Below, piece by piece: positions 9,296 to 17,472 of a DNA stretch of 33,934 nucleotides (its first letter is position 1; the number at the start of each line of letters is the position of its first letter). The DNA is from an uncultured Clostridia bacterium (lineage in GTDB: Bacteria; Bacillota; Clostridia; Christensenellales; UBA1242). Made by a program: the position numbers and the translations under genes. Where the stretch lies: the NCBI GenBank assembly GCA_946484195.1, contig CAMLSW010000010.1, forward strand, positions 1-33,934, written 5' to 3'. The notes below the pieces were generated by a model. That model saw only the letters and a list, made by a program, of their open reading frames with translations. It did no database searches and was not told the origin of the DNA.

Positions 9296-11208
<1,913 letters not shown>

Positions 11209-11418: not shown

Positions 11419-11516
11419 TGGCGAGAAAACAAAATTTTTAACACGTTAAAAATTTTCGTTTTGCAAAAGGCCTTTTGCAAAAGGGCACAAAAACTTTTTG
11501 TGCCGTTTTCTCGCCA
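11419..11516. repeat. Cloverleaf (four-way-junction) intergenic element, copy 2
   Basis: P1 pairs 11419-11430 with 11505-11516 (TGGCGAGAAAAC, 12 bp). P2 pairs 11431-11441 with 11446-11456 (AAAATTTTTAA, loop CACG). P3 pairs 11459-11468 with 11473-11482 (TTTTGCAAAA, loop GGCC). P4 pairs 11484-11491 with 11497-11504 (GGCACAAA, loop AACTT). Only three junction bases are left unpaired. The outer arm GGCGAGAAA is shared with copy 3, and the CACAA/TTGTG core of P4 is shared with copy 1. It sits in the convergent gap after groEL. Confidence 0.9.
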
Positions 11517-15018: not shown

Positions 15019-16170
15019 ATGTATAGAGATTTTAAAAACAAAACAACAACAAATTCGTTAATACCATATTCAATTATAGTGCTCATTTTTGTCACTATAA
15101 GAATTTTGTCGTCCGATTTAGTAGGGGCATTTGACTTTCTGGGCACGGTGGGGAGCTATATCCTAAATGCCTTTGCTCAGATTGGTATCCTTTTTACAAT
15201 ATCTGTGTTTGTATTTAAGGGCTTGCAAAAGGCAAAACTCAAGCAGGTCTTTAAGTTCTACGGCTTTAAAAAGATGTCTTGGAAGGGTGTATTATACAGC
15301 TTTTTACTTGGAATTATAGTATATATTATAAATGTCTTTGTTGTGACACTTTTTAGCAACATCTTGGTGCTACTTGGCTACAACTATCAAAGCGGGACGT
15401 CAGGCGGAAGCTATCCATTTTGGCTTTTTTTAATCAATATTGTCACCACGGCAGTTTTGCCGGCAATTTGTGAGGAGACGGCGCATAGAGGAATGCTCTT
15501 GCACGGACTATCAAGCTTTGGTACAACAAAAGCCATAATCTTTTCTTCGATTTTGTTTGGGCTTATGCATATGAATATAGAACAGTTTTTCTATACTACA
15601 GCCATAGGCTTTGCACTTGGTTATCTTACAACCTTCTGTGATACAATATATCCTGCAATAATTATTCACTTTACAAATAACGCGCTGTCAACCTTTATGG
15701 CCTTTTCACGTGCAAACGGGCTTGGCTTTGAGGGGATGTTTACTTGGGTTGAATACAATCTTCAAAATAATGTAGTCATCGCATTTATATTCTTAATTTT
15801 ACTTTTTGCACTTCTTATAATCTTGGCAAGAATGCTAGTAAAAGCACTACTCAAGGAGTCTATCTTGCGTAAAGTCAACGATATGCAAGAGCAGATTATG
15901 GAAAAGGTTGTAAGACAATCCTTTTACGAAGAGGTTAAAACTCTATCTGAAGGCAAGGTCAATCTCAGTGAAGGGGAGAATAACTTAGAGAAAATAATCA
16001 GCGAGGTGGCGATTGAAACCGACAACTCTGATGAGATAACAAATAATATGCTAAGAGAACCTACAAGGTATAAGCCAAACACACTCACAAAAGTGTTGCT
16101 CATCTGCTGTTTTGTGCTGATGGGGCTTGTCACGCTTGCGACATTTTTCATAGGTGTTTTATGCAGATAA
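15019..16170 (+). CDS. CPBP-family intramembrane metalloprotease (second copy)
   Basis: A 383-residue relative of the preceding gene. Motifs are CEETAHRG (Glu152, Glu153, Arg157), FGLMH (Phe180, His184) and IHFTNN (His217). Hydrophobic helices cover residues 15-285. A charged, probably cytoplasmic segment of about 70 residues follows (290-355, rich in Glu and Lys), and a last helix ends the protein. The tail-plus-helix is absent from the first copy. The ribosome site is weak (AGGTCGG). A 197-bp gap separates the two copies; the end overlaps rlmH by 10 bp, so those two are co-transcribed. The substrate is unknown. Confidence 0.87.
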   Translation: MYRDFKNKTTTNSLIPYSIIVLIFVTIRILSSDLVGAFDFLGTVGSYILNAFAQIGILFTISVFVFKGLQKAKLKQVFKFYGFKKMSWKGVLYSFLLGIIVYIINVFVVTLFSNILVLLGYNYQSGTSGGSYPFWLFLINIVTTAVLPAICEETAHRGMLLHGLSSFGTTKAIIFSSILFGLMHMNIEQFFYTTAIGFALGYLTTFCDTIYPAIIIHFTNNALSTFMAFSRANGLGFEGMFTWVEYNLQNNVVIAFIFLILLFALLIILARMLVKALLKESILRKVNDMQEQIMEKVVRQSFYEEVKTLSEGKVNLSEGENNLEKIISEVAIETDNSDEITNNMLREPTRYKPNTLTKVLLICCFVLMGLVTLATFFIGVLCR

Positions 16171-16616
16171 GACTTGTATGCATTGGCAACTTAAAAGAAA
16201 AATTTTGGCAAAGCGCAACCGAGGAATATAAAAAGAGATTGCAAAAATTTTGTAACCTTCAGATAATTGAGCTTGACGAGCAGAACAAATATCAAGACGT
16301 AAACAAAATTCTAAGCGAAGAGGGTAAAAGTATAATAGCAAATCTTGGCGGGTACAATATTTTGCTAGATATTGAAGGTAAAGCTTATTCAAGCGAGGAC
16401 CTTGCAAATAAAATTAAACAAACTTTGCTTTCTTCCAGCACAATAACCTTTATAATAGGCGGGTCGTATGGCGTCAGTGATGAGGTCAAAAGGAGTGTGC
16501 AAGAGCGAATTTCATTTGGCAGAATTACGATGCCACATAACTTGGCACGAGTGGTCGCGCTTGAGCAAATTTACAGGGCGTTTATGATAAATAGCGGTGC
16601 TAAATACCATAAATAG
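16161..16616 (+). CDS. rlmH: 23S rRNA pseudouridine-1915 N3-methyltransferase RlmH
   Basis: A 151-residue SPOUT-class methyltransferase, normal length. It uses SAM to methylate pseudouridine 1915 in helix 69 of 23S rRNA on assembled ribosomes. Family marks are the start MQIRLVCIGNLKE, the glycine loop FIIGGSYGVS, and the C-terminal knot MPHNLARVVALEQIYRAFMINSGAKYHK, where the usual PYHK is KYHK. Its start lies inside the end of the upstream protease gene, with AGGTG four bases before the ATG, so translation is probably coupled. Confidence 0.96.
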   Translation: MQIRLVCIGNLKEKFWQSATEEYKKRLQKFCNLQIIELDEQNKYQDVNKILSEEGKSIIANLGGYNILLDIEGKAYSSEDLANKIKQTLLSSSTITFIIGGSYGVSDEVKRSVQERISFGRITMPHNLARVVALEQIYRAFMINSGAKYHK

Positions 16617-16694
16617 CTTGACTAAAGTATAATTGATATGTATTTGTCAATGTATCTGTTGTTTTTATGTGATAAATATGGAGTTTTTCGGGGA

Positions 16695-16794
16695 GGCGAG
16701 AAAGTAAAATTTTAAACGCGTTTAAAATTTTGTTTTTGCAAAACTAAAGTTTTTGCAAAAACGCTCAAGCATACGCTTGAGCCACTTTCTCGCC
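16695..16794. repeat. Cloverleaf (four-way-junction) intergenic element, copy 3
   Basis: The clearest copy. P1 pairs 16695-16705 with 16784-16794 (GGCGAGAAAGT, 11 bp). P2 pairs 16706-16716 with 16721-16731 (AAAATTTTAAA, loop CGCG). P3 pairs 16732-16743 with 16751-16762 (GTTTTTGCAAAA, 7-nt loop). P4 pairs 16763-16770 with 16775-16782 (GCTCAAGC, loop ATAC). The stems are all Watson-Crick, and only C16783 is unpaired at the junction. A T8 run begins five bases after the element (16799), so it could also end rlmH transcription. It lies in a convergent gap. Confidence 0.92.
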
Positions 16795-16872
16795 CTCATT
16801 TTTTTTACCTCAAAATCTTTTAGAATTTCATACAATTTCACATATTGTTAAAAATAGTTTTTTAAAAAGCAC

Positions 16873-16956: not shown

Positions 16957-16994
16957 TTTATCACCTCAAGAGGAAAGTTTGCATATATTATTCA

Positions 16995-17408
16995 CTAAAG
17001 GTCATTATCTCGCTCGTCAAAATGTTCGTTAAATAGCCCGCGTGGCTCTCGTTTTGGCTCATAGTCCTCGTCGTATTCATCGTAAGAGGGACGTCTATTC
17101 TCTTGCGAGGGTAGCTCCTTACTTGCCTCAACGTTAGACTGCGAAGGCTCTTTATTTAAAACTTTATTGACATTTTTTTGCAAATCTTTTTTGTTTCTAT
17201 AAGAAAAAACAGCGATAGTACCTTTGCCTTTTATAAGTTTATACACTAAAAATAGGCTTGAAAGACCCACTATTATATAGACAATTCTTGACAAGATGCT
17301 TGACTGAAAACCAAAAATGCCTGCCACAAAGTCATATTGCAAAAGTCCGATAAGAAGCCAGTTGACAGAACCGAGTAGGGTTAAAATAAACGATAAAATG
17401 GTAAACAT
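16995..17408 (-). CDS. DUF378 (YuzA-like) membrane protein with charged tail
   Basis: A 137-residue protein. The first 60 residues match the DUF378 pattern: two helices with LGSVNWLLIGLLQYDFVAGIFG and SRIVYIIVGLSSLFLVYKL. After residue 65 comes a long hydrophilic tail that becomes very rich in Asp, Glu and Arg (YDEYDEDYEPKREPRG). Typical DUF378 proteins are about 70-80 residues, so the tail is an addition. I start at ATG 17408 because GGAGG precedes it; the open frame upstream adds 10 codons. The role of the family is unknown. Confidence 0.8.
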   Translation of the reverse strand: MFTILSFILTLLGSVNWLLIGLLQYDFVAGIFGFQSSILSRIVYIIVGLSSLFLVYKLIKGKGTIAVFSYRNKKDLQKNVNKVLNKEPSQSNVEASKELPSQENRRPSYDEYDEDYEPKREPRGLFNEHFDERDNDL

Positions 17409-17472
17409 ACAAATTACCTCCAGAAATATTTTTTGCAAATTAACAAAAAAAATTCTAAAGAGGCAAAAAAAC

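Follow-up and report, generated by a model that had tools for sequence, protein, structure and literature searches.

The window studied here, a 33,934-nucleotide stretch of one contig from an uncultured Clostridia bacterium, carries rlmH (16161–16616, + strand) and, facing it, an open reading frame of 147 amino acids (16995–17438, − strand). Between these convergent genes, at 16695–16794, a sequence-only reading had placed a cloverleaf of four stems of 11, 11, 12 and 8 bp, all Watson–Crick, with a single unpaired junction base, C16783. Stems and junction base were all borne out by folding. The two halves of the outer stem, 16695–16705 (GGCGAGAAAGT) and 16784–16794 (ACTTTCTCGCC), pair over 11 bp and enclose three hairpins. 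Arm A (16706–16731; helix 2) is AT-rich, with 11 bp and a loop of 4, and reads AAAATTTTAAA..TTTAAAATTTT. Arm B (16732–16762; helix 3) has 12 bp and a loop of 7, and is of the GTTTTTGC..GCAAAAAC type. Arm C (16763–16782; helix 4), richer in G+C, has 8 bp and a loop of 4 (GCTCAAGC..GCTTGAGC), and is followed by the unpaired C at 16783. The earlier reading had also proposed comparison with shuffled controls. When positions 16690–16800 were folded, the RNA minimum free energy was −50.8 kcal/mol against −21.38 (sd 3.37) for dinucleotide shuffles (z −8.73), the DNA fold gave z −9.04, and none of the shuffles folded as well, be it as RNA (0/200) or as DNA (0/200).

Several familiar identities were tried and set aside. 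The absence of tRNA features, noted from the letters, is confirmed by ARAGORN, which finds 0 tRNA genes in the window, and a tRNA reading of 16695–16794 was dropped. A known Rfam family was likewise rejected: nothing in the window reaches a gathering score, and the six matches obtained (E 0.24–0.62) fall far short of theirs and look fortuitous. Phage or plasmid origin was discarded, since neither collection, phage or plasmid, gave a blastn match at E 0.01.

The cloverleaf is one of many. We used a detector of adjacent hairpins closed by an outer stem, with a cut (score at least 28, GC at least 0.22) that excludes lower-scoring and AT-rich hits. In the 1,050,220 of 1,344,703 b scanned in the organism's own genome (G000), 28 three-arm places lie above this cut, against 0 in 1 + 10 Markov-2 randomised versions; before the cut there were 122 three-arm hits, against 16 in one control. 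Sorted by reading, the 28 places comprise 17 members of a family, 9 copies of a sister repeat that we call ACT, and 2 doubtful cases (L117 2265 and L140 5447) set aside by eye though they pass the cut. When two to five arms were allowed, ACT copies included, exactly three arms were found in 26 of 27 strong hits of the own genome (1,047,183 b) and in 18 of 18 in the related genome G063 (771,772 b); 51 more distant rlmH loci (L243–L293, 691,344 b) yielded one three-arm and one five-arm hit. A second member lies in the window itself, at 11419–11516, 3′ of groEL, and has an orthologue in G063.

Members are alike in shape more than in letters. Pairs of elements within a genome, mostly the own genome, have a mean identity of 0.52 and a highest value of 0.76 (49 pairs). 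Near-identical dispersed copies, a trait of MITEs, are seen for ACT and not for the family, two nearby copies in G064, outside that set of pairs, being the exception. Every copy has an inverted repeat in its outer stem, with a sequence that varies from one copy to the next. Among the 17 own elements we found neither common ends nor target-site duplications, the direct repeats averaging 1.7 against 1.2 under the null, with none of 5 or more. We are dealing with a family of dispersed cloverleaf DNA elements of 80–120 bp, each an outer stem bearing three hairpin arms, in one genus-level lineage of uncultured Clostridia. The sequence-only reading had spoken of a dedicated structure, and had held that a lack of other structured copies in the genome would refute it. 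Many such copies are present, and the structure belongs to a dispersed homologous family with a conserved architecture.

The same reading had suggested a covariance-model search of related genomes. MAFFT was unable to align arms of different length, hence a model, R1, was seeded from four copies. At E ≤ 0.01 it finds relatives in 28 of the 112 genomes that represent the genus, own genome included, and in 16 of the 72 high-quality ones. In an order-wide sample, four of 297 genomes have a match at E ≤ 0.001: besides the own genome, these are two congeners and a member of a sister genus; both the genus and the order searches used stricter filters, which lose weak matches. Stretches of G002, G004, G008, G010 and G024 hold only one three-armed member; it is in G010, where the detector gave five arms and the three-armed element was recognised by eye. 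The named rlmH loci that bear elements all come from metagenome assemblies of uncultured Clostridia or Firmicutes.

Elements tend to stay where they are. For ten of the 17 own elements the flanks could be matched in the stretches fetched from G063, and nine of these ten sites are filled in both genomes. The tenth, L122, is filled in the own genome, and the corresponding G063 interval, non-homologous (485 b vs 1582 b), has an ACT-type copy and no family element. Among 26 further loci from the genus search (L146–L171), eight show two-sided synteny with the own genome, and three of the eight have an own site in common (G008 at window 11419, G122 at both L005 sites, G069 at L114), to be compared with 17 elements per 328 intergenic regions of at least 120 bp (P 0.006). 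A loose search of the other five syntenic own intervals gave weak hits at four (scores 18.5–25.5) and none at one. Elements also lie within 100 nt 3′ of rlmH in four of 80 other named rlmH loci: L214 (G063), L215, L233 (G022) and L236. Collinearity between L215 and the window extends to either side of the element; the G022 element, which gives no R1 match at E 1, was kept out of the orientation counts. In species with elements in the same place (G008, G069, L215) rlmH is 67–75% identical. Of the nine G000/G063 pairs, three have an exchanged flank from the very edge of the element onwards on the 3′ side, that of arm C, and a fourth has one starting shortly beyond the edge, against none of nine on the arm A side; this is only suggestive of a real asymmetry, being confounded with gene positions. 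At one pair (L012 2526 and L190 2372) homology between the two genomes stops at the element edge, and the G000 sequence after the element has its counterpart some 3.5 kb further on in G063.

Within these conserved sites, loops and whole elements are found inverted. Between G000 and G063 the arm B loop of L140 is exactly inverted, its arms intact, and the arm C loop of L104 nearly so; a loop inverted between conserved arms is what template switching would leave behind. Over 48 orthologous hairpins from 16 homologous pairs (one of them two copies in G070), a crude string measure gives 20 identical, 13 closer forward, 7 ties, 7 closer inverted and 1 exact inversion. As for entire elements, the more distant same-site pairs between species with a readable orientation are flipped in three of eight cases and kept in five. 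Flipped are window 11419/G008, where the intergenic site is occupied in both genomes, L005b/G122, and L242 9914/L216 9933 (G066/G069). Kept are window 16695/L215, L005a/G122, L114/G069, L242 4836/L216 4890 and L306/L147. The flip between L216 and L242 is seen directly: the loci are collinear over 11.9 kb and, inside, 9936–10021 also matches 10005–9915 in reverse. Closer pairs all keep their orientation (9/9 G000/G063 pairs, L307/L153, L233/L236 and L149/L150).

Pairing is retained through extensive change of letters. We aligned 42 matches from 35 chosen sources, giving 41 distinct rows, in an alignment fitted to the structure that includes three rows reading elements already present from the opposite strand (the two window elements and L215) and one repeated locus (L152, identical with L242). 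Both sides have changed in 40 of the 40 pairs, standard pairs fill 97.5% of 1549 cells, and double changes account for 560 cells. Covariation scores 0.856, compared with 0.188 for shuffled and at most 0.197 for slid controls; 109 further pair types were counted, as many being reached in 54 of 500 shuffles. Arm A has the most uniform letters of any arm. These compensatory changes are of the kind expected across relatives of a structured RNA, though G-U pairs, summed from the per-pair table, make up just 10 of the 1549 cells, against 21 of 422 pairs in the stems of 20 tRNAs of the own genome (Fisher 2.9e-8). Under one and the same rule, cloverleaf arms of the own genome have 15 G-U in 405 pairs and terminator-like hairpins 87 in 633 (Fisher 2.7e-8), a control that may include chance G-U. 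Nine G063 orthologues located by synteny, taken with their G000 partners, have 6 in 716. Some of this scarcity is built in, since both detector and model started from perfect pairs, and the detector leans towards Watson–Crick pairing.

How is such a structure kept? One answer is that it is an RNA, folded in the 3′ regions of messengers as a terminator, an RNase shield or an RNase III site for the upstream gene, selection on the RNA fold producing the covariation. Gene positions speak for it. Intervals between divergent genes contain none of 18 own elements and one of 30 from relatives, where 15.4% would be expected from intergenic length. The count relies on crude ORF calls, one of the 18 being an ACT copy and one of the 31 relatives' elements given lying at a contig edge; the binomial probability is 0.003 pooled and 0.058 for 17 own elements, the sites being not all independent. 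The sole exception, L151, looks like a spurious ORF call, because its flanking genes, groEL and an SDR gene, are convergent in the window. The near-absence between divergent genes puts the elements at gene 3′ ends, as do the 34 of 63 distances to a gene 3′ end that are 100 nt or less, and this fits either a 3′-end role or insertion that is tolerated only there. The window element is moreover followed by 9 T within 12 nt, and its arm C is called terminator-like on the − strand, the T run being part of arm B. Against this, a scan of the + strand, that of rlmH, called no terminator at the element, the T run after it is absent in G063, and over the family a T-rich 3′ side (at least 7 of 12) is found in 2 of 17 elements and an A-rich 5′ side in 1 of 17, so that an intrinsic terminator was rejected as a family trait. 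Orientation is free, with flips inside a single site, and G-U pairs are far rarer than in tRNAs. A structured RNA of this kind is in our opinion unlikely, while it keeps a real share of the probability. Scarce G-U, inverted loops and flipped copies together favour maintenance of the structure as DNA rather than a structured RNA of the conventional kind, and this is how we would narrow the choice left by the sequence-only reading between cruciform, structured RNA and small mobile repeat.

Another answer keeps to DNA: the cruciform, or the single-stranded cloverleaf, would be selected as the target of a protein that binds junctions or hairpins and reads the shape, leaving the letters free. The fixed three-arm architecture, the almost wholly Watson–Crick pairing, the indifference to orientation and the retention at nine of ten testable G000/G063 sites would all agree with such a landmark. 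Yet no partner protein was found, Y1_Tnp being the only one searched, and presence in 28 of 112 genus genomes at the model threshold hardly befits a core function, though the filters lose weak matches. We hold this proposal to be doubtful.

The third part of the original suggestion, the small mobile repeat, applies without reserve to ACT only, the copies of the 16695–16794 family mostly staying in place between species. The window has an ACT copy at 36–118, an 83-bp cloverleaf with arm A first on the + strand. The complete unit, about 135–150 bp, consists of this cloverleaf and a tail that contains another hairpin; its end lies near GGCTTCCGATAATATAA. It is present at L019, L104, L140, L236 and other places, in tandem arrays with a spacing of about 136–149 bp and at several contig ends, and was counted at 28 places of the own genome, contig ends truncating some of them; a loose text match with its core gave mostly noise. 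In layout ACT shares the three arms of the family, arm B being similar as well, and its best copies are matched by R1 at E 1.7e-4. The ACT repeat is mobile: near window position 16989 a site is filled in G063 and empty in the own genome. ACT is without matching ends. In 16 of the 22 units listed its left neighbour is TATAA or TATAG, and its right end is similar, a resemblance that would favour head-to-tail insertion; ends of this type are missing from the family elements. Yet another repeat, of 75 bp and partly cloverleaf-like (GAGGCGAAAAC..GTTTTCGCCTC), was noticed at L113 8190–8267 and at L010 10301–10376 and 10564–10639; as judged by eye, it abuts the 3′ end of an apparent tRNA gene in L113 and adjoins tRNA-like sequence in L010.

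Could the family itself still be moving, as a non-autonomous element carried as a folded single strand by a Y1 (HUH) transposase in the manner of REP or IS200/IS605 derivatives? The mobile sister, tandem and lacking matching ends, lends some colour to the idea, and so does the distribution of Y1_Tnp, found in 13 of 112 genus genomes, nine of which are among the 28 that bear elements (hypergeometric 4e-4). It would also be consistent with site L122, mentioned above, and with two copies of one element lying 2.5 kb apart in G064 (C10 1592 and 4061; L305 and L161), 99% identical over 132 b, for which homology begins at the outer stem on one side and extends past the element on the other. Yet the Y1 association could come from common ancestry, no Y1_Tnp was found in the own genome (80% complete), the own copies are not near-identical, and the four Y1 loci read (L294–L297) end in plain hairpins and not in cloverleaves, whence IS200-type ends were rejected as a model for the element. 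Present-day mobility is quite improbable. An ACT copy just beside the Y1 locus L297 is taken as neighbourhood only. Y1 (IS200-type) matches with internal stop codons occur in G053, G058, G063, G067, G071, G107 and G122, and all of these genomes except G107 also have cloverleaf matches.

Finally, that distant species would have their common sites through independent insertion at preferred places, and not by vertical inheritance, might be argued from L114/G069, whose identity of 0.455 is matched or exceeded by 63% of different-site pairs, but this is a poor candidate when, ranked for likeness among 647 different-site pairs, four of six same-site pairs come within the top 2% and one more stands at 5.4% (opposite-strand and repeated rows of the alignment having been excluded), and when three of eight syntenic loci have a site in common.

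The account that we prefer, with moderate confidence, is that pairing is kept at the level of DNA, by hairpin-templated copying within a repeat that is old, probably derived from a transposon, and located at gene 3′ ends. The family would have begun as a small non-autonomous mobile repeat, sister to ACT, which settled mostly at the 3′ ends of genes; a mobile origin leans on the likeness to ACT, because the family itself has neither target duplication nor common ends, and it is from this likeness that we infer descent from an ACT-like mobile repeat. When replication leaves the DNA single-stranded, each arm may fold, and the polymerase may then copy one arm from its partner. Mutations would spread in this way to both arms, pairing staying near-perfect while the letters drift, and the same template switching would at times flip a loop or the whole element. 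Near-exclusive Watson–Crick covariation, inversions and turnover of letters would all follow without requiring an RNA. Homogenised arms and an inverted spacer are described as a signature of template switching between inverted repeats (PMC8604942), and the process has been put forward as a way in which RNA hairpins arise and persist (PMC8794818). Those precedents, as there presented, concern RNA genes and, within yeast coding genes, single inverted repeats. The arms kept alike by copying, the compensatory changes of several bases and the loop inversion described for them recall what we see here, in a four-helix family of bacterial intergenic DNA (PMC8794818; PMC8604942). In our case template switching is suggested by few events: one exact inversion and seven hairpins closer inverted, against 13 closer forward, among 48. 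Neither mutation nor template switching explains persistence in place, for which selection on shape or a preference of insertion site is probably needed. Selection on shape may add to template switching, the two being inseparable here, and any role in the cell would depend on the shape, cruciform or hairpin, and not on the letters.

Integron attC sites are also folded DNA, read by structure and variable in sequence, with a GTTRRRY / RYYYAAC core at their ends. The family differs from them in having no attC-like core at the ends of its elements (0/17), a full outer stem and three nearly flush arms. Closer relatives in kind are the bacterial MITEs and small palindromic repeats, such as Correia/NEMIS, ERIC, RUP, RPE and YAPL (PMC2229807). 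As these are described there, they too are about 100 bp long, mostly intergenic and dispersed, with a long paired structure closed by pairing of the 5′ and 3′ ends (PMC2229807); our family has instead three separate arms on an outer stem, own copies that are alike in shape more than in sequence, and no common terminal repeat or target duplication that we could find. CIR of Caulobacter and Brucella, in the same source, has more than one arm in its predicted structure and is conserved across species, but its two arms are joined by a linker, it exposes a GANTC motif, and the account given mentions no outer closing stem (PMC2229807). REP and BIME sequences, with their TnpA-REP (RAYT) transposases, share with the family that they are extragenic palindromes, possibly non-autonomous, with Y1 transposases in some carriers (PMC8266576; PMC3733652). 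The family has, by contrast, no GTAG/CGTC tag at the hairpin foot (0/17 elements), a four-helix cloverleaf in place of a single palindrome, and no cloverleaf at the four Y1 loci read. In the open-licence PMC literature we found no bacterial repeat of this layout described among the matches listed, and the nearest systems there, as far as the sources portray them, are MITE-like repeats and the two-armed CIR.

More speculatively, and this we think possible without believing it probable, these may be DNA elements of which only the shape counts: four-helix cloverleaves that remain long in place, their letters rewritten and flipped by copying of DNA from arm to arm, with the heritable information in the fold, and used by the cell as orientation-independent marks at the ends of genes. 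Covariation is commonly read as strong evidence of a functional RNA stem. A complete covariation accompanied by few G-U pairs and by inversions fits template switching of DNA, and would caution against equating covariation with selection on RNA. The family offers many natural replicates for measuring arm-to-arm copying in bacteria and, if the shape itself is selected, it would represent a new kind of chromosomal landmark.
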